From a virus: DNA of 64,000 bases. The stretch lies in the IMG/VR virus record IMGVR_UViG_3300020473_001965, positions 124,001 to 188,000 of that record. One strand, given 5' to 3'. Both the position numbers and the translations under genes were made by a program. Under the pieces are notes generated by a model, which saw only the letters and a program-made list of their open reading frames with translations, had not been told where the DNA came from and did no database searches. Shown here in pieces: positions 50,901 through 64,000 of the stretch (its first letter is position 1; every line of letters starts with the position of its first letter).

Positions 50901-50929
50901 AAAATAACACGCATAAAGAAAATGTTCAA
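50901..50929 (-). promoter_or_regulatory. Possible promoter before the A-family polymerase gene
   Basis: The minus strand reads TTGAAC (50924-50929, over the upstream stop codon), exactly 17 bases, TATTTT (50901-50906). The start would fall at the first codon, so a leaderless message or a start downstream would be needed. Low confidence. Confidence 0.28.
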
Positions 50930-53900
50930 GGAAGACGAGCTTCGGCAGCTTTGACTCTATTTTCCCACACAGTTTTTTGACTAGAATCTTCCTCTGAAGA
51001 AAATGAAGAGCCTAGCCAGGCGTTAAAGAGGCCTATTAGGCGCTTGCATTTTGCTTTATTGTTATCAGACTTTTTCTGCTTTGCGTCTTTGTCTTTGCCT
51101 GTTCTCCTGTCAGCGTCTTCTTTGTACCTAGCAGCCAGGATGGCTGCGCCTTCGATATCATGCAGAAGGTTTCTAGGTTTCACGCTTCTGAGCGTTGCTA
51201 ATCTAGCTGCCTTAGCAGCTGCCTTTTCAGCAGCTTCTTTTGCGATCCCCGCTTCTTCAGCATGTTCGTTAATTAAGTCTGTTTCAACAATTCCACGAAG
51301 AGCTTGCTGGTTAGTAACTCTCACTCTTACTTCATCTTTGTTTGCATCAACTTCATCTATGGCAGCCGCTGTCTGATCATCAACAGTTGTTCCGCTCGAG
51401 CCTACACGTGTTGCGATATCTGACAGGCGTTGAGTCAGATCTTTAAAGACTGCATATCCCCCTGTGTATAAGAGATTTGCAGACGTCGTAAACTTTCCTG
51501 CCGCAACTTCATGAGACACACTCATTACACTGTACAAAGCATCAAGATCTGTGCCTGTTCTGAAGTCTACAAAAACTGTTTGCAAGGGTGCGATAATGGG
51601 ACATCCTGGAAGGGTCAAGTTTAATTGTTGAGGCATCATAGTCATCGGCATTATATCTTCTTCGATACCAGAATCATCGCCTGGATCAGACCCCTTCAAC
51701 ATGTGAACGGTGTTCAAGTCAGAATTTGATGAGTTACTAATACTTGCAGCAAATAGTGCTGAATTACTAGAGCCTATGTCAATAGAAGGTGCAAAAGTTT
51801 TTAATAAGTCTTTGTATGCGTTGCCTCGTTTAAATACTAGATAGTCTCCTTCGTTTGACAATAGACCTAAATCTTCAGCAAAAGTATAAGCTCTATTTCT
51901 ATCAATCGCACGTGAAACAGATGCTGTGTAAGGCTCCTCTTCACCTTCAGATTGATTAACTGCAGACGGGACATAGTCTTCAAAGATTCTATACATTAAA
52001 TCTGTCGCTCCTGAATATGACATCGATTTTTCGTCTTCAATGTATATCCTCAAGATCTTTGACGATTCGCATGTGGCTGCGCCTCCTACTTCTGCTTTTC
52101 CCTCTGGGGTCAAAGGCTGGATTGGAGGTGCTTCAAACTGAACCTTTATCAGTGGGGTTCTGAACTCATAGGGGCCCGTTTCGTAAGCGTGCTTTAATGC
52201 TTCTGACCTTTTGCTGTTAGCAGTTTCGAGAACTCGTTCAGACTCAATTTCTTTATAATCAAAAAACCCTGTGTCCTTGTTTACAGTTCTTGTATAGTCG
52301 CGACCTTTTGATCCGAAGCCGTATTCTGCCCATCCTTGATTATCAAAAAAGACGTTCTGAATCAGTCCTACAAAATCCATTATCCCTATGTTGGGACCTT
52401 GTGCATTGGTAACTCGATCCATTGCAGCTTTAAAGTCTGGCCAGTGGATTGGTATCGCTGCGATTGACATGTTGCTTATATAAGAAGCTCTGTCATTAAT
52501 AACACCCCATATCACTTGAATCTCGTCAAACTCAGGAAAACCTGGGGCGTATGTCAGAGGTGATACGACGTAGAGATTGAAAAGCTTTCCTAGAGAAACA
52601 TAGTCTCGGTTTTGCTTTCCTATCAACATATACTTTTCGACGCGTGCTGAATCTTTTAAGTCAGGCTTGTATTCGTAAAGCCTTGGGTGTGTACTACCTC
52701 CCCAGCATTTATCCCAAACGAGCCAAGGATCAGGCGCGTCCCAAACTCCAGTCAACTTCTTAGACGCAACGCTTTTGATTGTCTCTCTTGCTGAAGTCAA
52801 CGCTGATATGTTTGACCCACCCGACCCTATCAATTCTTCTAGTGCAGCTACTGCATCATCGGGAACAGCATCACCAGCTTTTTTTGCAGTCGCTATTAAG
52901 GCATTGATTGAGTCAAGTGCTATAGGAAATGTAAATTGCTTTCCGGCTTTGCCTGCTGATTCAAAAATCTTTTTAATTCTTGTCGTAGGAAGGCCGGGGG
53001 TTTTTTCAGGCAAATAATCACGTATAGAGACGATGAGATCTTCCAGGTCTTGCAACATCCTCTGTTCAGATTTTGCGACATCATCGAGTATCTTTCCACC
53101 CTCGATAAACTGTTGTGCTCCGCTAGCTGCAATCGTCAACGTTACCTGAACTTCTCCTGTTGGAGTGAAAGAATACGAAGAGTTTGCAATCATGAACGTC
53201 TCAGATCTTCTCATGCTATTGATAAATTGACCAAAAGGTGCGTCGCCTATCGGCAAGTTTGCATCTGGATGGATCCAGCCATATTCTATTTTTAGATATG
53301 TAGTGCCCATATGACGTGGGCTTACGAGAGATGCTATTTCTGCAAGTCGAGATCTGTCATGCAGAGTAAAAGTTAGAGACCCGTCTGTAAAGATAATAGA
53401 GTTTACTTGGGGCGCTACATTTAGCTTTATGCCCATAAGAGACATGAACGGACGGTATGGGTCGATTACGCCAGATGTGGTTCCATTAAACCCACCTATT
53501 CTAGTTACTGTCCCACGGCGCTCGTCGGAATTTACCAGTGTTTGTGGTGATAAGAATACTTCCATGCCGCTTACATTTCTTATTTTCGATTGTTCAGCCT
53601 TCACGGACGTATCGTCTGCGCCGTCGGGCATTTCCAGCCTGTTTGAAGTTTTTGACCATGATGTGGAAGAGAACTCATCCTCGCCTAGTAAAAACCTGTA
53701 TAATGATGGGACACCTTCTGCATCTACATTATCTGTACCACGACCTGGTCCGAAAAATTGAACGTCTAAATACGGCACACACCTGGACAACTCAATTGTT
53801 GGAAGTGCATTAAGAAAGATGTGCAGAGCTTCAGAATTTCCTGTTTCTCTAGAGAATGTTATATCATTGCTGCAAATATTGGTTATTATGGGTTCTTCTA

Positions 53901-54378
53901 TCTCTTCTCTATTTTGGGCCACCACCGCAGCAGGCGATGTCGATTCGAGTACCCTCATCATCATCACCGTCCAAACACCCATCCAGCATGTGGCATTATC
54001 AGGATTTAAGCTAAATCCACCTCCGGCTGCCGGAGAAAGAGTAGGCGGGCCAAATGACTGCACTACAACTTTGCCTGCAAGATCTCCAGTATTGGCTTCT
54101 AGCATCTGGATGATCTCACCTATGGGTGGGTTTCCATTACCGACCCCATACAGAGAATTGCGAAGGAGAGAGATCGCATCGATTTCACTCACTGTCTTAG
54201 GAATTGCTGCGTTCGGCCCTGTATCTGTGTTTCCTTCAATATTATTGACAGGCTCAAACGTTACAGCGTCAGCTATGCCTTCAAGCAATCCTGTATTCCT
54301 ACCCAGATACTTGGACAACTCATTTATTACTTCATAAAGATTTGATGGGTTCCATCTTTTTATTTGATCGCCAGACAT
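50926..54378 (-). CDS. Baseplate hub-type structural protein (1150 aa)
   Basis: An 1150-aa virion protein. The middle part carries a pattern I know from baseplate hub/tail-spike base proteins: LMGIKLNVAPQVNSIIFTDG, LTFTLHDRSRLAEIASLVSP, TTYLKIEYGWIHPDANLP and ETFMIANSSYSFTPTGEVQV. Further on are Ala-rich helices, and from 1060 the protein is an Ala/Lys-rich coiled coil (EEAGIAKEAAEKAAAKAARL) running to the end. No lysozyme motif is visible. ATG 54378 follows the LysM gene by seven bases. Co-transcribed with the tail genes upstream. Confidence 0.75.
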   Translation of the reverse strand: MSGDQIKRWNPSNLYEVINELSKYLGRNTGLLEGIADAVTFEPVNNIEGNTDTGPNAAIPKTVSEIDAISLLRNSLYGVGNGNPPIGEIIQMLEANTGDLAGKVVVQSFGPPTLSPAAGGGFSLNPDNATCWMGVWTVMMMRVLESTSPAAVVAQNREEIEEPIITNICSNDITFSRETGNSEALHIFLNALPTIELSRCVPYLDVQFFGPGRGTDNVDAEGVPSLYRFLLGEDEFSSTSWSKTSNRLEMPDGADDTSVKAEQSKIRNVSGMEVFLSPQTLVNSDERRGTVTRIGGFNGTTSGVIDPYRPFMSLMGIKLNVAPQVNSIIFTDGSLTFTLHDRSRLAEIASLVSPRHMGTTYLKIEYGWIHPDANLPIGDAPFGQFINSMRRSETFMIANSSYSFTPTGEVQVTLTIAASGAQQFIEGGKILDDVAKSEQRMLQDLEDLIVSIRDYLPEKTPGLPTTRIKKIFESAGKAGKQFTFPIALDSINALIATAKKAGDAVPDDAVAALEELIGSGGSNISALTSARETIKSVASKKLTGVWDAPDPWLVWDKCWGGSTHPRLYEYKPDLKDSARVEKYMLIGKQNRDYVSLGKLFNLYVVSPLTYAPGFPEFDEIQVIWGVINDRASYISNMSIAAIPIHWPDFKAAMDRVTNAQGPNIGIMDFVGLIQNVFFDNQGWAEYGFGSKGRDYTRTVNKDTGFFDYKEIESERVLETANSKRSEALKHAYETGPYEFRTPLIKVQFEAPPIQPLTPEGKAEVGGAATCESSKILRIYIEDEKSMSYSGATDLMYRIFEDYVPSAVNQSEGEEEPYTASVSRAIDRNRAYTFAEDLGLLSNEGDYLVFKRGNAYKDLLKTFAPSIDIGSSNSALFAASISNSSNSDLNTVHMLKGSDPGDDSGIEEDIMPMTMMPQQLNLTLPGCPIIAPLQTVFVDFRTGTDLDALYSVMSVSHEVAAGKFTTSANLLYTGGYAVFKDLTQRLSDIATRVGSSGTTVDDQTAAAIDEVDANKDEVRVRVTNQQALRGIVETDLINEHAEEAGIAKEAAEKAAAKAARLATLRSVKPRNLLHDIEGAAILAARYKEDADRRTGKDKDAKQKKSDNNKAKCKRLIGLFNAWLGSSFSSEEDSSQKTVWENRVKAAEARLP

Positions 54379-54673: not shown

Positions 54674-57600
54674 TTAGTCTCCATTCGGCTTACTCTTTTC
54701 ATATGGCCCTCTGGCAAGCTTACCTACAGAGTTTCCAGCATTGTAGATTGGTGCCCTGTTCATTCCGTACTTATCTAATCCAGGCCCAATATCGTGGATT
54801 GGGGAGAATGAGATTGTAATCTGACAAGCTTTTGGCGCTTTTGATCCTTCTGAAGTTTCCCAGGTTATTTGATCAAGCCACTGAAAGTCCATCTGAGTTA
54901 TGAATCCTGCGAGGCCTCGACCCATGGAGGATTCAAATGCCCTGACAACTGGGTTTGTCTCAGAAGACATGAATTCTCCAAAGTCTGGTGGGTCTGCAGC
55001 AGGTGCGTACTCAATTGAATCAGGATCTACTTCAAAGACCCCGGCCTTGGCAAGAATATAATACGGTATTACAACTTTAGAAAGATCGAGATCCCTAACC
55101 TTCATAGCTTGTTGAAATGTCCCATATTTTAAAGCCGCTGCCGCCAGGGCGCCGGCGGCACCTACCACAGTTTTTCGGGCCGGAGGTATGGGCGCAGTGA
55201 CTTTACAATGAGCTATTCCGTATTTTGATATATTGCCAAAATCGCCAGATGTCAATCCCATTTCTAAAGATTCTAGTGTTGGTTCGATTTTTGAAATCTC
55301 AAAGACCATACCAGACGGAACCCAAACTTGACGCATCTTTTCTTTTCCGTCCTTCTGGATCATGACTTTCACTCTTTCTTTACTGGTGAATTTTGCGGAA
55401 ATTGCGCCAAGGAGAGGCGGCTCGGCGTATTCTGGAGTTGCACTTTTATTAATCGCTGAATTTACATCTTCCGTCAGCTCGACTGCAGAGATGATATCAG
55501 ATGCAGCCTCGGCAGCAAAGTCTGGATTTACACCTGGGCCGAAAAGCCTTGCCAGTGCAAATTTAGAATAATTTGATTTTATTAAATCACCTAATCTCAA
55601 TCGAATCATTGGAGATGCTGCTAGTACTTGTGAGAACGGGGCAGTAAAAGGTTTGTCATCATTTACGTCTGGGTTTTGCACCATGGTTCCGCCAGAATAC
55701 TGTGGGTACATCAGTGTCGTCAGCTTGTTAATCTTCCACCACATCTCATCAAAATCCCTCGGATTAGTTGAGACAACCCAGAAGGTCATTCCAATCGCTC
55801 GCTGCGTATTGTTGTAAATCATCACTGGATCTGCACGGCCGTACCCTTGATTTGAGTCATAATTGGCTGTATAGGAATCAGATAGTGACGTCAAAAAAGC
55901 ATTAAATGATACAATTTCGTTTGTTCTAATATCGTGAAAATAAAAAGGCATGTACTCGCCTTCGCAAAGATCTTCTACTTTTTTAACTAACTCGGCTGAA
56001 AGTCTTGTGTCGCCTGAATCGAGAACCTGTTGCTTGTATCTATGGTCATCCCCCAAAGCGTCTTTAAACTCATTTTGATAGTTTGGATCTTCTAGACCGA
56101 ATGATACTATTTCACCGCCGACAGATTTTGCCATTGTCAAGACGTCTGCACTTATCAAGTAAGTACTGGGAGGGGCTCCCTGGCGCCAAACTAGTGTTTG
56201 ATCAGCCCCGTCGATTGTATATCTACTTTTACCTACTCGATATTCTTGAATTCCTGCCTTTAACTCTATTGCATCGATTGATGAGACTTTTGTATCAATA
56301 ACTCCTGAAGCATCGCCAGGTTTAGAAATTATCTTGGATGCATCAGCTTCAATAAGGACGTCTTCGTAGATATCACCCATTGCTGCTAGCATGTTTATGT
56401 AGCCAATTAGTTTCGAGTTCCTAATTGTGGCAAAGAGGTCAGCAATTGCGCCTAAGGCAGCGAACAGACCTCCCTTGAAAATGTCACCAAACGCCAGGCC
56501 GATCTCAATGGTCGATCTAATGACAGCACGGAAAACAATTGAATAATAACCCGGGGAGTCATTAATGTTTCTCCCGCCCGGCAAGAATGAAAATATCCCA
56601 CCTGAGCCTCCTTTGAAGGCATCTACTTCTCCAAAGAAAATTTCTGTCCCTAATGATGTCGCCTCGACAAAATCCATGTTCGTAGGACGTACACCGAAGA
56701 ACGATGGTTTAACAAGCGCCGCTCCGCTGCCTCGGAAAAATTTACCTATTTTTCCTGGGTTTGGGTTGTTATACGATGATACTAGCTTATTACTCGATGG
56801 AAGAGGTAGGATCAGTGCACCAATAATCATCGCCACAAGATCTACTAGTATTCCAATTGCTAGAACAAGCGCAATGACAAGCACAGTCATTCCCATTTTT
56901 GGTGTTGCGCCGAACGGTTCAAGTGGGCTGTTTAAAACACCCCAAGATTTATCACGAAAACCCTTGTAGACTTTTGTAACAGATGCACCTTTAGTCTCTC
57001 GGTTTCCTCCGCCGAAACCGGGTTTCTCGACATTACGAGCAAGAACATCATTGGGGTCAACTTTTGTAGCCCCTAGCTGCTGGAGAGAAGGTAGGATCGC
57101 TGCCAAGTCGCCCGTTGACGGTGAGTGTCCTGTCGCAGCTACGATGAGCTTGTGACCGATATCCTTCATCTCTTTTAGCTTAACACCCCCAGAGTTACTA
57201 TCATACTCACCTAATTTGTCTTGCTTCGAAACAAACTTCAAAGCATCAACATCACCTGATGACATCGGGGATCTGGATGGGTTGTAGGGTGACTTACCAT
57301 CGGGGTGGAATCTATTGAATTGTGTCAAAACTGGGCTTATTAAAGCTTTGTCACGAGCCTGCTTAAGGGCTTCATGACCGGTTTTTGCCTCATCTTTTCC
57401 TGACTTATCAACAACATCAGCTATTTGATTTCCATCAAAGGTTCCGCCGCCCTTAGCATCGGGTGCAGACCCTCCTGAAATGGTATCATAATACGATCTT
57501 AGACCTGCTGCGTCGATGTTTTTATCGTATGAAACAGCAGATCCGCCGGATCCTACTGTGTGGTGGGCGCGGCCGCCGTCGTCAGCTATGATAGAAAAAT

Positions 57601-57823
57601 CTTCAGATCCCGGTTTTAAAAAATACCTGTTCGATTCATTTGTTTCTTTTGCAACATAGTCACCTAACGCATCTCGAATATCTTCTCGAAGATCATCAAC
57701 ACCAGGATCAGCTGTACCGTCTCCCTGCTGATCGATTATATAATCGATCTTGTCAGTACCTTCTTTGGCACCATAGGGGTGTGCCCTTAGAAAATCTTTT
57801 AATGTTGATCTTGACTCTGCCAC
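54674..57823 (-). CDS. Large baseplate/tube-cap protein with membrane-like segments (1049 aa)
   Basis: A 1049-aa protein. The first 290 residues are Gly/Asp-rich and polar. Residues about 300-335 (GMTVLVIALVLAIGILVDLV, then MIIGALILPLP) form one or two strongly hydrophobic segments, unusual for a baseplate protein and perhaps used in membrane contact or ejection. The C-terminal half has GRADPVMIYNNTQRAIGMTF, FDEMWWKINKLTTLMYPQYSGG and SPMIRLRLGDLIKSNYSKFA, a pattern of tube-cap (T4 gp48/gp54-like) proteins. The start is GTG 57823 with AGGTGA six bases upstream. Followed after three bases by the LysM gene. Confidence 0.75.
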   Translation of the reverse strand: MAESRSTLKDFLRAHPYGAKEGTDKIDYIIDQQGDGTADPGVDDLREDIRDALGDYVAKETNESNRYFLKPGSEDFSIIADDGGRAHHTVGSGGSAVSYDKNIDAAGLRSYYDTISGGSAPDAKGGGTFDGNQIADVVDKSGKDEAKTGHEALKQARDKALISPVLTQFNRFHPDGKSPYNPSRSPMSSGDVDALKFVSKQDKLGEYDSNSGGVKLKEMKDIGHKLIVAATGHSPSTGDLAAILPSLQQLGATKVDPNDVLARNVEKPGFGGGNRETKGASVTKVYKGFRDKSWGVLNSPLEPFGATPKMGMTVLVIALVLAIGILVDLVAMIIGALILPLPSSNKLVSSYNNPNPGKIGKFFRGSGAALVKPSFFGVRPTNMDFVEATSLGTEIFFGEVDAFKGGSGGIFSFLPGGRNINDSPGYYSIVFRAVIRSTIEIGLAFGDIFKGGLFAALGAIADLFATIRNSKLIGYINMLAAMGDIYEDVLIEADASKIISKPGDASGVIDTKVSSIDAIELKAGIQEYRVGKSRYTIDGADQTLVWRQGAPPSTYLISADVLTMAKSVGGEIVSFGLEDPNYQNEFKDALGDDHRYKQQVLDSGDTRLSAELVKKVEDLCEGEYMPFYFHDIRTNEIVSFNAFLTSLSDSYTANYDSNQGYGRADPVMIYNNTQRAIGMTFWVVSTNPRDFDEMWWKINKLTTLMYPQYSGGTMVQNPDVNDDKPFTAPFSQVLAASPMIRLRLGDLIKSNYSKFALARLFGPGVNPDFAAEAASDIISAVELTEDVNSAINKSATPEYAEPPLLGAISAKFTSKERVKVMIQKDGKEKMRQVWVPSGMVFEISKIEPTLESLEMGLTSGDFGNISKYGIAHCKVTAPIPPARKTVVGAAGALAAAALKYGTFQQAMKVRDLDLSKVVIPYYILAKAGVFEVDPDSIEYAPAADPPDFGEFMSSETNPVVRAFESSMGRGLAGFITQMDFQWLDQITWETSEGSKAPKACQITISFSPIHDIGPGLDKYGMNRAPIYNAGNSVGKLARGPYEKSKPNGD

Positions 57824-58098: not shown

Positions 58099-61000
58099 CT
58101 ATTTGGGTGGTGGTGTCTTCTTAAATGGTAAGTGTACTTTGAAGTTTTCTGTTTGTAACATTGCCTTGGCCAGATTCTCTGCGTCAAGATGAATATCAAG
58201 CGCGAAGTTAATCGATATCGGCTTGTCTTTGATCTTAGTAAATTCTTCTACGATTGATAAATGATCTTCAATATCATCGATTGTGGCTTTCAATTCAATG
58301 TTAGGAATGCCTTCAACCAGCGTGTTGATTGTAGCAAGCTCCATTGCCAGTGCTTCGATGTGCCCCTGGAGCGTAACGGCAGCTTCGATTCTCTCATCCC
58401 AGAGTTCTGGAATATAACCATAAAGGAATTCATGCTGGAATAAATCAGCTAGGTCGTTACCATCTGTAATGGCGTCTTGCATGTAACTGTACATCTCAGC
58501 AAAAGTTCCCGCGTATGCACCCATATTGTATCCCGAAGCATTGGCATTATACAACATACTCCCGATAGATTCAAATGCATTGGCCATGACTACACCCGCT
58601 TCATTAAAGTTGTCTGTCATTGATGGACCCAGCTTCATTATCTTCTTTGATGACTCGTTCAAGTTGGACATCGAGTCCAACGTACTGTTAACCAACCCTA
58701 CTTGTTTCTGGATAGCTTCTTGCTGCTCGGCGAAGGCGGACATGCCCCGGCCCATCATTTCGAGCATTGTTCCTCCGGTTGCCCGGTCTAGCGCCGTTTT
58801 GCCGTCTTCGGTTTTGGCGCGGGCTGTGTCTCGAACTCGTTGCTGACCATGCATGCCGGCGAGGTGCTGCAACTTGTTCTCCATCATCTCATCTGCGGAG
58901 ATGTCCAACATCCCCAGGGCAACCAGTTGGTCATTTCCTGCGCCCCCGAAGCCGGCTTCACTCATTTCTCGCTGCATCTTCTTCCCGGCCAAGCCCATTT
59001 CAATCATCTCTACTTGGAACTTGTCATTCATCTTCTTGATGCGTCGAAACATGCCGTCGGGCCCGAGCATAACAGATTCAAAATCAGAGATTGCGTTTTC
59101 CATCGCAGACTGAGCAGCTGCTCGATCGAACTCAATATCTGATGCATCGTGCATTGTCTTGACGATGTCTTGAACACCTCCGACGACTGTCTGGATCATC
59201 TGAAATGCTGTCTGAATGCCTTTACCAGTTGCTGATAATTCTCCAGTATTGGGATCTATTCCGAATTTTCCTGCAATTGCCGGACCTATTGCCTCCATTG
59301 CGTCGAGCGCAGTGTTAATACCTGAGTCTAGGCCTTCAATCAGCCAGCTACCATTCTGCTTCATTACTTTGGATTCAGATCCGAACTTCCAAAATTTCTT
59401 CAGGGAATCGCCCATTCCGGACGAAACCCTGCCCCACCCTTTCTTTAGACTGTTTAGCGCTCGTGACTTCTTGAATGGCGCGCCGAAACCGTCGAGTAGC
59501 CAACTGCCTGCTTTTTTAAGTCCTCCTAGAATCTTCCTTCCTGCGCCTGATTTAGTGAACTTCTTTAAAAAGCCTAGAGACTTTGAGAACATTCCGGTAA
59601 ACTTTTTACTCTTACCTTCTTTTTCAACACCCATGTTGATACCTTGCATCATCGGGCGACCAATCCACTTTGCAAGGTTTTTGGCAGGGGATCCTAACCC
59701 GATCCAGCCTCCTACTTTCTTTAATCCTCTTTTGACACTTTTCTTTGCAGAGCGGCCGATGTCTTTTGCTTTTTTAACTCCAGAATCGATGCCATCCATG
59801 ATGCCCTTTCCTACTTCTTTTGCTTTGGCTTTGGCTTTATCTTTGAGGTCCCCCAAGCCTTTCATGAGATTACTGCCAAGGTTTTTTGCCATGCTCCAAC
59901 CCTTCTTCACCCACTTGGCTGCTTTCTTAAACGGCCAAAGGAGAATGTTGACGATTGCATCTTTAGCCGCTGCAAAACCGTCGATCATCTCTTGCATTAT
60001 TGGTGGGAGCGATCCGGGCAATAGCCAAGACCATACGCTCTTAATTATTTCCCAGGCTTTCTTGAACGGCCAAGTTATGATGTCGACGAAGGCTTGTCCG
60101 ACTGAGGCGAACCATTCAATAGTGCTGTTCCAGGCGTCTCTAATCCAGTTTCCAAGATCTTGGAAGGCGCCCCAGATTACTTCTACAAATAGCCAGTGGA
60201 AGGCGTCTCCGAGACCTGCCCAAGAATCTATGAGCCCTTGTTCAAAATTAAAAAAACCAAATGTTAGGAAGTCACCAAAAGCTGCACCCCACTCTAAGAA
60301 GGCTCGAATACCCGAACCTATAGTGTCAAATACCTTTGATATAACACTGCCCGTACCAGTCCAAATGTCTTTAACCCTCGAGAGGTGCTCACCCATCTTT
60401 TTAAGCCCTTGCCAGAAGAAAACTACGGGTGTTACTAGCTTTCCAAACAACTTGCCGACACCTTTCAGCAGGCCTGCAAACTTTGATGTCTTTGGAAAAA
60501 CATTTCCAAAGAAAGTACTGAATTTACTTCCTACGTCTTTAATCCATTTTCCGGCTGACTGAAACCACTGACCTACTGTATAAAGAGGTTTAAACATCTT
60601 ATCAGCAATCTTTCCAGGGCCGGTCAGCCAACTGAGGAATCCGTTCCACGCTGCTTGAAAAGGTTTGAAAATAAAGCTGGCACCCTTCATTGCGTTCCAG
60701 ATTGTACTGAAGAACCCTCCAATAAACGCTCCCGCACCAATAATACCCAGACCTGCAACTTTAAGAAGAACAGCAGGGCTGAAAAGTGCCATTAAAGCTA
60801 AAACGATATAGGCCGCTTCTTTAGGATTAGATTTTGCCCATTCATAAATTCCCTTGCAGATCTCGGCCAGAATCAGTTCGATGTAGGGCCAGAGAGCTTT
60901 GAAGAATCGACCCCATGCGCTGAAGAGTTTCGCAAAACCCGATTCCATCTGGCCCACGTTTCCTTCCCCGGTTAGGGAGGCTTCGAACATTGGGAAGAAT

Positions 61001-62730
61001 TCCTCTAGAGCCTTTGCAGCAGCAGTTACTAGTTCAGCTGCCATTCCGGCGAGGTAGTCCAGGGCTTTCATAATGGCATCTTTGAATCCCATCCCAAATA
61101 CTGATTGGAATGTCTTGTCAAAGTCTTGAAATGCTTCGGTAAATTTACCCTGCATCAACAAGTCAAAGAATCCGCCGGGTCGTGCAAGCTGGTCCATCAG
61201 TGGAAGTAGCTTGCTGATGTTGTCAATAATCTTGTCGAAAAACCCTATGTCAACGAGGCGTTGGAAAACCTCACCTAGCTTCCAACCGAGTTCGTACATT
61301 TTCTCATTAAGTTCTTGAAACGACTGAAGATCGCCTTTTGACTTCATAAAGTCACTAAAGCCTTTCGTGATGTTCTCAAATATTCCACCTGTAGACAGAA
61401 TTTCAATCATCTTTGAGAATTCATTAGTGAGATTCTTTACTGCGGCTGTCATCTTGTCCGCATCTGACATCTGGTCTTTTGAAGCTTTCTTCAAGTCTTT
61501 GACTGATTTACCCCTGTTCTTTTGTGAGAACATCAGCTGGGCTTCCTGCTCTGATAGGCCTGTCTGAGAAGCGAGGAGTCGTAACTGCGCTGCATTCATC
61601 TTTTCAGATGATTTCCCGGCGGCGAACATTCTCTTTCGCAACATCTCCAGATTCTTAATAGGATCCTTGGCAGCATTTTTCATCATCTTCATTGGATTTA
61701 GAGCCATGCCGAATGCTTGACCTAAAGCAGCTGCTGACTTGGCAGCATTATCGAAGTTCATAAACTTGTTTGTGATTTTAGCCAGGGACTTAAATGAAGT
61801 TCCAAGAGATCTTAAGCGACCTGCAGTTACGGCTGCAGTCTTAATTGTGATGTTACCAAAGTTGGCGACATCAGCCATTATCCCACCGATATCTTTCGAG
61901 ATGACCTTTTGAGCAACCCCTGTTGCTTCCATCATTGCGTAGGATTGTTGAACTAATTCATCAGAGAAAGAATTCAGGTCTCTTCCAGTAGCTAAGGCTC
62001 GTGTTCCCAAAGCTTGCATTTCGGTTGCACCAAGACCCAGCACCTTGCTTAGAATGAGCGTATTTTCAATGTTTGGCATTAGGCCATTGGCATCTAAAGC
62101 GTTAAATGTGTCGCCTAGATCTTCAGCAGCTTTACCCACTGCGGCATATTCCTCGCCTGACATGAACTTGAACATGTTGCCAAACTTTTTCTCAACTGCG
62201 CCGGCGCCCTTGGCCATCTGGCGGAGACCCTTTGCTTGAGAACCGAACTGAGTTGCCAAATCTTGAGACTTTTGGGCAATCTCGGCACGCTTTTGGGCTA
62301 TTTCATTAGCCATCTTCATCAACGCATTGACGACTTTTAGAGGTGCAATTATAAGGTTGAAGTTAAGCTTTAAGAAAGACTTGCCTAAAGATAGGAAGCC
62401 ACCTCGCATCGCGTTGGCTGCTTTTGTCGCAAGCTCAATCGCGCTAGCCATACCCTTTAATGCTGCTGCGGCTACACCGGCTGCTCTACCAAACTTCTTT
62501 GTATCTTTAGCTGCTACACGCAAGGCCTTGCTAAGGGCACCTGTCATAGAGTTTGTTTTAGCAAGCTCTTTACCAAATGTTGATCCAAAATCTCCGCCGG
62601 CGTCGGAAAGCCGGTTAATCTCTTGTGAACCTTTTCTCCATGCAGACGTAAGCTGTTGAGAGAGCTTTATCTGCTCACCCATAGCATCATTTATGTCATT
62701 TAAATCATCAACATTGATATCAGATGCCAT
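58099..62730 (-). CDS. Tape measure protein (1543 aa)
   Basis: A 1543-aa helical protein. It opens with the polar helices MGEQIKLSQQLTSAWRKGSQ, then Ala/Lys-rich stretches (AAGVAAAALKGMASAIELATKAANAM) and a central hydrophobic zone (YIVLALMALFSPAVLLK; GLGIIGAGAFIGGF) near residue 630. Trp- and Lys-rich repeats follow (WPFKKAWEIIKSVWSWL; LWPFKKAAKWVKKGWSM). This order is typical of long tail tape measures, which set tail length and help eject DNA. By the rule of about 0.15 nm per residue the tail would be near 230 nm. ATG with AAGGCGG upstream; a 74-base spacer lies before it. The largest gene of the tail operon. Confidence 0.88.
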   Translation of the reverse strand: MASDINVDDLNDINDAMGEQIKLSQQLTSAWRKGSQEINRLSDAGGDFGSTFGKELAKTNSMTGALSKALRVAAKDTKKFGRAAGVAAAALKGMASAIELATKAANAMRGGFLSLGKSFLKLNFNLIIAPLKVVNALMKMANEIAQKRAEIAQKSQDLATQFGSQAKGLRQMAKGAGAVEKKFGNMFKFMSGEEYAAVGKAAEDLGDTFNALDANGLMPNIENTLILSKVLGLGATEMQALGTRALATGRDLNSFSDELVQQSYAMMEATGVAQKVISKDIGGIMADVANFGNITIKTAAVTAGRLRSLGTSFKSLAKITNKFMNFDNAAKSAAALGQAFGMALNPMKMMKNAAKDPIKNLEMLRKRMFAAGKSSEKMNAAQLRLLASQTGLSEQEAQLMFSQKNRGKSVKDLKKASKDQMSDADKMTAAVKNLTNEFSKMIEILSTGGIFENITKGFSDFMKSKGDLQSFQELNEKMYELGWKLGEVFQRLVDIGFFDKIIDNISKLLPLMDQLARPGGFFDLLMQGKFTEAFQDFDKTFQSVFGMGFKDAIMKALDYLAGMAAELVTAAAKALEEFFPMFEASLTGEGNVGQMESGFAKLFSAWGRFFKALWPYIELILAEICKGIYEWAKSNPKEAAYIVLALMALFSPAVLLKVAGLGIIGAGAFIGGFFSTIWNAMKGASFIFKPFQAAWNGFLSWLTGPGKIADKMFKPLYTVGQWFQSAGKWIKDVGSKFSTFFGNVFPKTSKFAGLLKGVGKLFGKLVTPVVFFWQGLKKMGEHLSRVKDIWTGTGSVISKVFDTIGSGIRAFLEWGAAFGDFLTFGFFNFEQGLIDSWAGLGDAFHWLFVEVIWGAFQDLGNWIRDAWNSTIEWFASVGQAFVDIITWPFKKAWEIIKSVWSWLLPGSLPPIMQEMIDGFAAAKDAIVNILLWPFKKAAKWVKKGWSMAKNLGSNLMKGLGDLKDKAKAKAKEVGKGIMDGIDSGVKKAKDIGRSAKKSVKRGLKKVGGWIGLGSPAKNLAKWIGRPMMQGINMGVEKEGKSKKFTGMFSKSLGFLKKFTKSGAGRKILGGLKKAGSWLLDGFGAPFKKSRALNSLKKGWGRVSSGMGDSLKKFWKFGSESKVMKQNGSWLIEGLDSGINTALDAMEAIGPAIAGKFGIDPNTGELSATGKGIQTAFQMIQTVVGGVQDIVKTMHDASDIEFDRAAAQSAMENAISDFESVMLGPDGMFRRIKKMNDKFQVEMIEMGLAGKKMQREMSEAGFGGAGNDQLVALGMLDISADEMMENKLQHLAGMHGQQRVRDTARAKTEDGKTALDRATGGTMLEMMGRGMSAFAEQQEAIQKQVGLVNSTLDSMSNLNESSKKIMKLGPSMTDNFNEAGVVMANAFESIGSMLYNANASGYNMGAYAGTFAEMYSYMQDAITDGNDLADLFQHEFLYGYIPELWDERIEAAVTLQGHIEALAMELATINTLVEGIPNIELKATIDDIEDHLSIVEEFTKIKDKPISINFALDIHLDAENLAKAMLQTENFKVHLPFKKTPPPK

Positions 62731-62804: not shown

Positions 62805-63050
62805 CTACAAAGGCCAGTCAATGCCTACTTTTTTCAATTCTAAGACAGCTACTTTTTTCTCATTAACAAGGTCTTTTACCTCAGACAATGTTGTCTCTTC
62901 TGAGTCTAATGCTTCTAGAAGAGCAAGTGAAGCATCGTAGGCACGCCCCAATGTCTCTGTCCTTTTACCTTCTCGCTTAAGACCTGCATATTCCTTGCGC
63001 TCAAGAAGAGAAGAAGCAGCCCCTATAATAATTTTATCATGAGTTTTCAT
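62805..63050 (-). CDS. Small helical protein before the tape measure gene
   Basis: An 81-aa protein, start ATG 63050 with GAGG six bases upstream (a longer frame starts at 63062). A basic N-terminus (KTHDKIIIGAASSLLERKEY) and two helices (LGRAYDASLALLEALDSEE; TLSEVKDLVNEKKVAVLELK). The place just before a tape measure gene fits a tail assembly chaperone, but no known family is recognised. Confidence 0.7.
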   Translation of the reverse strand: MKTHDKIIIGAASSLLERKEYAGLKREGKRTETLGRAYDASLALLEALDSEETTLSEVKDLVNEKKVAVLELKKVGIDWPL

Positions 63051-63078: not shown

Positions 63079-63291
63079 TCACGTGCTTCTTCTTAATCTT
63101 GCGGGAACTTGGGCCCTGTTTTTACCAGAGAGCATCCTTGATTGTGCGTCTTGCTGGTGTGCTGCATGTGGGTTAGGCTGTTGTTTTTCGTTAGCCTTTT
63201 CAATTTCTTTACCTGTTCTTTCTATAAACCAGTGTCGATACTTGACTGGTATGTTATAGGTCTCACTATAAGTGAAACCCATGTAATACAT
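63079..63291 (-). CDS. Small tail protein, probably the product of frameshifting from the gp26-like gene
   Basis: From the ATG at 63291 the protein has 70 aa (MYYMGFTYSETYNIPVKYRH and on, then WFIERTGKEIEKAN). There is no ribosome site before it. The same frame stays open upstream to 63351, reading GLTPNDREALLEQHFLLMYY, which fits the conserved start of such small phage proteins better than the ATG. This frame meets the end of the gp26-like gene at a run of seven T. The layout, aromatic strand then W-x-IER helix, recalls small proteins after gp26-type genes (T4 gp51-like position). The C-terminus is a polar, Gln- and Arg-rich tail. Confidence 0.6.
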   Translation of the reverse strand: MYYMGFTYSETYNIPVKYRHWFIERTGKEIEKANEKQQPNPHAAHQQDAQSRMLSGKNRAQVPARLRRST

Positions 63292-63325
63292 CAATAGAAA
63301 GTGTTGCTCAAGAAGTGCTTCTCTA

Positions 63326-64000
63326 TCATTCGGCGTCAGGCCAAAAAAAGTTTACCCCGAGAGGTACCCCCAGTTCAGACCCCTCTCCACATGCAGGACA
63401 CTCAAACCAGGAGGTCATGTCTATTCCTGGCTCTATATCGTCCATGTACTTTCTAAGTGCACGTGAGTCCCTTGCGGGCATATTTCTAATAAAGTTATTA
63501 ATCTTTGATCGATCAGTAACTCCAGCGACTTCGACAAGAGTATGTTCAAGCCGTTGAGTAATATTGCTCTCTGAGATCTGTCCCATCTTCTTTCTTCTGG
63601 CATCGATCCTTGTAATTTCTTCTTCATCGGCGCCTGTCAAGAATCTGAACTTTACCTTCTTCTTAGTATAAGGTAGTTCGAAAGTAAAGAGGTTTTCACC
63701 TATGTCGTCTGGTGCTGCTCCTAGCCGGTTAATTGGCATTTCGGCTAAGTCAAACTCATATTTAGAGGATGTTCCACATTCAGGGCATGTTACCTCTGTT
63801 TTATACTCAGCACCGTATCCTGTAACTCTTAGAGCTATCATCAAAGCGTTTCGGTCACCAGAGATTAGGTCGGCTGCTCTAATGTTTTTGTCAACTAAGC
63901 AAGACTCAATTAGGTGTGTGATTACTGTCCCCTTTTTAATAAGAGCACGTGATGTCAGAATATCTTCTTCTCGAGCTGTCATAGGACGGATATCTACAGT
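63326..64000 (-). CDS. Baseplate hub assembly protein, T4 gp26-like, N-terminus outside the window
   Basis: The frame runs on past the right edge: before MTAREEDILTSRALIKKG the in-frame codons read TVDIRP, a common lead-in (VKIRPMTxREEDIL-like), so the true start is beyond 64000. The visible part has TCPECGTSSKYEFDLAEMPI, a C-x2-C element, DADEEEITRIDARRKK, and a second C-x2-C pair (FECPACGEG) near the end, giving a zinc site of two knuckles. This matches the gp26-like (T4 baseplate family) proteins of marine myoviruses. It ends at TGA 63326-63328; just before, GTAAACTTTTTTTGG may be slippery. First gene of the tail operon in this window. Confidence 0.72.
   Translation of the reverse strand, partial: TVDIRPMTAREEDILTSRALIKKGTVITHLIESCLVDKNIRAADLISGDRNALMIALRVTGYGAEYKTEVTCPECGTSSKYEFDLAEMPINRLGAAPDDIGENLFTFELPYTKKKVKFRFLTGADEEEITRIDARRKKMGQISESNITQRLEHTLVEVAGVTDRSKINNFIRNMPARDSRALRKYMDDIEPGIDMTSWFECPACGEGSELGVPLGVNFFWPDAE
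63343..63349 (-). other. Possible +1 frameshift site (run of seven T)
   Basis: On the minus strand AAC TTTTTTT GG lies 20 bases before the stop of the gp26-like gene. Skipping one T moves the ribosome into the frame of the next gene, which is open from here to 63079. The stop of the zero frame, a TGA, is close behind. Slippage on T7 could equally be a -2 shift. Not proven. Confidence 0.4.

Follow-up and report, generated by a model that had tools for sequence, protein, structure and literature searches.

Introduction

The tail assembly chaperones of T4-like phages are reported to be gp26 and gp51 (Vladimirov, Gautam and Davidson 2022, Virology 566:9-15, as relayed in PMC10885494 and PMC12846349). 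According to PMC10885494, the short and long chaperones of some T4-like phages are encoded by separate genes, and PMC12846349, citing Vladimirov et al. 2022, places poly-T signals for -1 shifting in T4-like chaperone genes. T4 gp51 itself was described in 2010 as an essential protein of unknown function (PMC3004832). Phage lambda makes a short tail chaperone, gpG, and a shift-extended form, gpGT, encoded between the tail tube and tape measure genes, and a tail gene of the haloarchaeal myovirus HSTV-2 very likely undergoes +1 frameshifting (PMC5009743).

We analyzed a 64,000-nucleotide stretch (the window) of the 235,672-base IMG/VR record IMGVR_UViG_3300020473_001965, from a large uncultured phage, in which a gp26-like gene overlaps a small ORF in another frame, the whole locus lying on the minus strand. 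The locus is like the T4 pair in its family, PF12322, to which both T4 proteins belong, gp26 being short and gp51 longer, with a C-terminal tail that may resemble the +1 ORF; it differs in that T4 obtains the two forms from two separate genes, whereas here there is one gene with a +1 overlap. By gene arrangement, it can also be likened to lambda gpG/gpGT, as a putative short and shift-extended chaperone encoded at the same position, although the shift is -1 in lambda and would be +1 here. We consider it very likely that the two ORFs specify a tail assembly chaperone in a short and a long form, the latter joined by +1 frameshifting.

Results

The features of the locus are as follows.
63326..64000, minus strand: zero-frame ORF, putative gp26-like short form of a tail assembly chaperone (PF12322); stop codon TGA at 63328-63326, probable start beyond the window
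63341..63349, minus strand: candidate slip site TTT-TTT-TGG, marked by in-frame conservation as TTY-YTT-TGG-CCY in 81/81 sequences, column information and codon bias
63079..63342, minus strand: +1-frame ORF of 87 amino acids, putative C-terminal part of the long form, marked by an open +1 overlap in relatives, pN/pS, a helical model and weak DUF6760 similarity
62805..63050, minus strand: following small ORF, which has a ribosome site of its own (GAGG at 63060-63057, ATG at 63050)
58099..62730, minus strand: tape measure protein gene (phrog_167, 5.6e-19; phrog_58, 1.2e-15)

The 3′ end of the gp26-like ORF reads GGG GTA AAC TTT TTT TGG CCT GAC GCC GAA TGA on the minus strand, with a run of seven T residues (63349-63343) in phase 0. 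The small ORF, in +1 relative to this gene, is already open ahead of the T run and stops at 63079, and from GGC (63342) it translates as GLTPNDREALLEQHFLLMYYMGF... An earlier note on this DNA had proposed that the run connects both frames just before the zero-frame TGA, and had remarked that the small ORF is open upstream of its ATG (63291) and that this ATG has no ribosome site. The minus-strand sequence agrees on each point: no Shine-Dalgarno (SD) motif precedes ATG 63291, and the ATG of the next gene has GAGG six bases upstream. The start that the note assigned to the gp26-like gene, 63982, is probably wrong. In the source contig, the frame runs 70 codons further upstream, outside the window, to a TTG preceded by AGGAG, which is probably the true start, ATG 63982 being internal.

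The gp26-like ORF matched Pfam T4_baseplate (PF12322; E=2.8e-17, 63.6 bits against a gathering cut-off of 24.5) and the PHROGs baseplate hub family phrog_150 (1.1e-19), and in BFVD the fold of its model matched baseplate-hub models, that of SP-15 among them. Both T4 gp26 (208 aa) and T4 gp51 (249 aa) fall in PF12322. In hhalign, the extra C-terminus of gp51 and the small ORF gave a weak alignment (E between 5e-4 and 3e-3 at a probability of 10-30%, with controls at 0.08 or worse), a suggestive resemblance between the small ORF and the gp51 tail. DUF6760 (PF20546) scored the small ORF of the window below its gathering cut-off (19.8 bits vs 27) and matched 17 of 35 relatives at E up to 0.1, the best at 6.1e-5. 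PDB sequence and fold searches with both parts gave nothing significant and no similar solved structure, and named phages yielded no match at the DNA level or with the small ORF alone as query.

A tail tube gene (phrog_4542, 1.1e-27) lies upstream of the gp26-like ORF, with one 134-aa ORF between them, and the tape measure gene lies downstream of the pair, likewise separated by one small ORF; the order of tail tube, gp26-like ORF, small ORF and tape measure recurs in named phages. This gene order, together with the likeness to T4 gp26 for the short form and to gp51 for the long one, points to a short/long pair of tail assembly chaperones and thereby gives a specific identity to what the note had suspected only to be a tail gene. 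The locus shows the arrangement of the lambda G/GT kind: a position between the tail tube and tape measure genes, an other-frame overlap without a start of its own and a conserved slippery site before the stop. The small ORF of the window lies in +1, not in the frame of a classical -1 X_XXY_YYZ site. The ORF at 62805-63050, with a good ribosome site and no family assignment, separates the putative chaperone genes from the tape measure gene. Downstream of the tape measure gene, two minus-strand ORFs of over 1,000 aa (50926-54378 and 54674-57823) had no PHROGs match.

We examined conservation in a close set of 81 sequences, consisting of the window and 80 IMG/VR loci at 54-90% identity. All 81 carry zero-frame TTY-YTT-TGG-CCY with the small ORF in +1, as TTT-TTT-TGG-CCT (59), TTT-CTT-TGG-CCT (17), TTC-TTT-TGG-CCT (4) or TTT-TTT-TGG-CCC (1). 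Had close relatives lost the T run, the note would have counted this against its proposal; no such loss was seen at the level of the slip site, the run itself being intact in 60 and present as TTTCTTTGG in 17 and TTCTTTTGG in 4. In every one of these sequences, the zero-frame stop begins 15, 18 or 21 nt past the start of the slip codon. A wider set comprised 193 gp26-like loci from profile scans and named phages (158 of them non-redundant, some contigs being represented more than once). A profile of the small ORF placed it in a +1 overlap in 183 of the 193 and in -1 in 7, and did not detect it in the remaining 3. Among the 158 non-redundant loci, the slip pair is nearly always TTT-TTT, TTT-CTT or TTC-TTT, followed by T; rarer sites are TTT-TTT-TAC, TTT-TTT-CAC (SP-15), TTC-TTT-CGT (Streptococcus phage GXN1) and CTG-TTT-CGC (BRock). 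The cultured Flavobacterium phage immuto (TTT-CTT-TGG) and Microcystis phage Mel-JY01 (TTT-TTT-TGG) keep the site. Its retention across about 140 distinct related virus sequences indicates a conserved device rather than an accident. Runs of seven T are not rare, with 5 in 56 kb of window genes, of which only the slip-site run is in phase 0, and the large ORFs of the window contain nine in-phase TTY-YTT-T sites, the slip site included; the tetramer alone is therefore insufficient, and context must matter. What exceeds chance is the conservation (81/81 for the site, 183/193 for the overlap), not the T7 run itself.

Some loci depart from this pattern. LIS04 (TTT-TTT-AGT) and LR756508 (TTT-CTA-TTC) fit only with a slip one codon earlier. 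121Q and CBB have a classical -1 site, T-TTT-TTC, at which the small ORF lies in the -1 frame. In one relative (L165), the site reads TTC-TTC-TGG and the small ORF has moved from +1 to -1, which is either a real change or a one-base error. In LR756511 (L087, at about 4,694), the gp26-like protein is C-terminally extended and the small ORF is in -1 with its ATG at the stop (TAATGGATG), an arrangement that suggests coupling rather than a shift.

The site is also constrained at the nucleotide level. The slip Phe codon avoids TTC, with TTT:TTC at 131:5 compared with 721:383 in the rest of these genes (p=4e-17, a value that overstates the number of independent events because the loci are related by descent). 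Across 142 loci, positions -3 to +8 each carry 1.43-2.00 bits, and the wobble positions of the site carry 1.75, 2.00 and 1.89 bits, compared with 0.05-0.59 bits for those further upstream. Past the slip codon, some of this conservation is to be expected, as both frames are coding there.

The most serious alternative involves no frameshift: the small ORF would be a separate gene translated by re-initiation after the zero-frame TGA, from an internal ATG or TTG (63294 or 63291). In most of the close set, the ATG lies within a conserved LMYYMGF motif (at codon index 17 in 58/81), the stop is about 35 nt upstream of the internal start, and TAATG-type starts are present in LR756511 and 121Q. However, 67 of the 81 close sequences lack an SD-like motif before the first ATG, so that the relatives do not as a rule show the normal ATG and ribosome site that the note had named as counter-evidence, and among the 124 small ORFs whose core could be located, 24 lack any ATG, GTG or TTG ahead of it. 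Moreover, the stretch before the ATG is under purifying selection in the +1 frame only: pN/pS for codons 6-16 of the small ORF was 0.27 in +1 compared with 1.01 and 1.81 in the other frames, and 0.26 after the ATG, a comparison that is descriptive because the sequence pairs are not phylogenetically independent. When the gp26-like part and the small ORF were modelled separately with AlphaFold, the latter gave a helical domain (mean pLDDT of 83-95 for each block of ten within residues 1-50), the predicted first helix of which spans residues 4-21 and thus starts before the ATG; in the model, re-initiation would lose this helix. Re-initiation also leaves the conserved T run unexplained, and we regard it as improbable.

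What we observed is a conserved site, overlapping frames, constraint on coding, a characteristic order of genes and membership in the family; from these we infer that frameshifting occurs, at an efficiency that confines it to a minority of ribosomes, and that its two products serve as short and long chaperones. Most ribosomes would read the gp26-like gene to the TGA and produce the short form, of about 288 aa as predicted from the upstream TTG. A minority, with tRNA-Phe (tRNA-Leu in the CTT relatives) on the YTT before TGG, would slip one base forward onto TTT; in the window, the P-site codon at 63346-63344 would re-pair at 63345-63343, making GGC (63342-63340) the next codon. These ribosomes would carry on in +1 and produce a fusion of about 370 aa, in which FF|G marks the junction with an extra helical domain. 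On the model of lambda gpG/gpGT, the region common to both products would coat the tape measure protein, and the added domain would bring in the tail tube protein.

The same frame could be reached by a -2 ribosomal shift, as known in phage Mu (PMC5009743), with one residue more in the product, and the note had left this choice open by writing "+1 (or -2)". The T7 run of the window permits -2 re-pairing of the second TTT codon, whereas TTC-TTT-TGG, TTC-TTT-CGT and CTG-TTT-CGC relatives would need TCT or TGT to pair with tRNA-Phe. In the forward direction, YTT-T permits a move onto TTT, and the few TTT-C sites permit one onto TTC. Since TTC-TTT-TGG and CTG-TTT-CGC cannot re-pair at -2 and +1 fits nearly all variants, the +1 half of the proposal stands and the -2 half is disfavoured, at a probability still smaller than that of re-initiation. 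Slippage of RNA polymerase on the homopolymer of seven T is less credible again, as TTT-CTT-TGG (19/158 non-redundant loci) and TTC-TTT-TGG (6/158) break the run to 3-4 T. An assembly or sequencing error that split one gene, as might befall a homopolymer in a metagenomic contig, was rejected with near certainty, because the same frame break recurs in independent contigs and in the genomes of cultured phages, immuto and Mel-JY01 among them, and the stop stays within 15-21 nt of the slip codon throughout the close set. The +1 frameshift that the note had suspected between the gp26-like gene and the small ORF is thus supported by the conserved site and overlap, the shift itself being deduced from sequence.

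As to candidate stimulators, five folds of the flanks of the site were no better than shuffled sequences, and Rfam gave no match. G-rich stretches that could serve as an upstream SD-like stimulator occur in close relatives and are not conserved in distant ones.

Discussion

A large, mostly uncultured group of phages carries the gp26/gp51 family, and its members seem to share a conserved +1 ribosomal shift. We found no description of this +1 group in the part of the literature that was covered. Beyond T4 and lambda, HSTV-2 very likely shares the +1 direction. The chaperones of the Vandenendeviridae and Andersonviridae, with their invariant GTTTTT motif (PMC12846349), are similar in having poly-T near the end of the short-form gene and an extension kept across relatives, but their shift is in the -1 direction. 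Forward sites of the release-factor-2 type, CUU_U (PMC10885494), offer the same CUU-to-UUU re-pairing in the P site as our TTT-CTT-TGG relatives; they differ in that the next codon here is the sense codon TGG instead of a stop, and in that no upstream SD is conserved here.

With +1 shifting in the uncultured group, -1 shifting elsewhere and two genes in T4-like phages, one family would arrive at the same two products by three routes. A broader reading, which we offer tentatively and hold to be rather less likely than its negation, is that frameshifting at a single conserved codon pair, Phe-Phe (or Phe-Leu), underlies the whole gp26/gp51 family, with a +1 shift in most of the surveyed phages and a -1 shift at T-TTT-TTC in 121Q/CBB-like jumbo phages, that the separate gp26 and gp51 of T4 are a derived split of these two products, short and long, and that the +1 site, which has sense UGG as its A-site codon and lacks an obvious stimulator, constitutes a new class of forward shift site. 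Our result also provides a concrete reason to ask whether T4 gp51 acts as the long chaperone form. Furthermore, the C-terminal part is mis-annotated in named phages: SP-15, immuto and Mel-JY01 list it as a hypothetical gene, either separate or shortened, and the LIS04 annotation omits it.

DUF6760 is also found in actinobacterial genomes. In six of these (L213, at about 6,270 on the minus strand; L202-L206; L210), the ORF upstream of DUF6760 ends in GGGGGAATCGTGA (6/6), with the DUF6760 ORF in -1 relative to it. The neighbours in L213, namely a sheath, T4 gp19-type tubes and a CIS tube/LysM protein, indicate a contractile injection system. The GGGGGAATCGTGA end could reflect a -1 shift at GGGGGAA or, fitting equally well, an SD followed by a GTG start that overlaps the stop; for this reason, we did not use the actinobacterial contractile injection systems as a second case of frameshifting. 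In four others (L207, L209, L211 and L212), the DUF6760 ORF overlaps or closely follows the end of the upstream ORF and in three has its own ATG, so that some members of DUF6760 appear to be separate genes.
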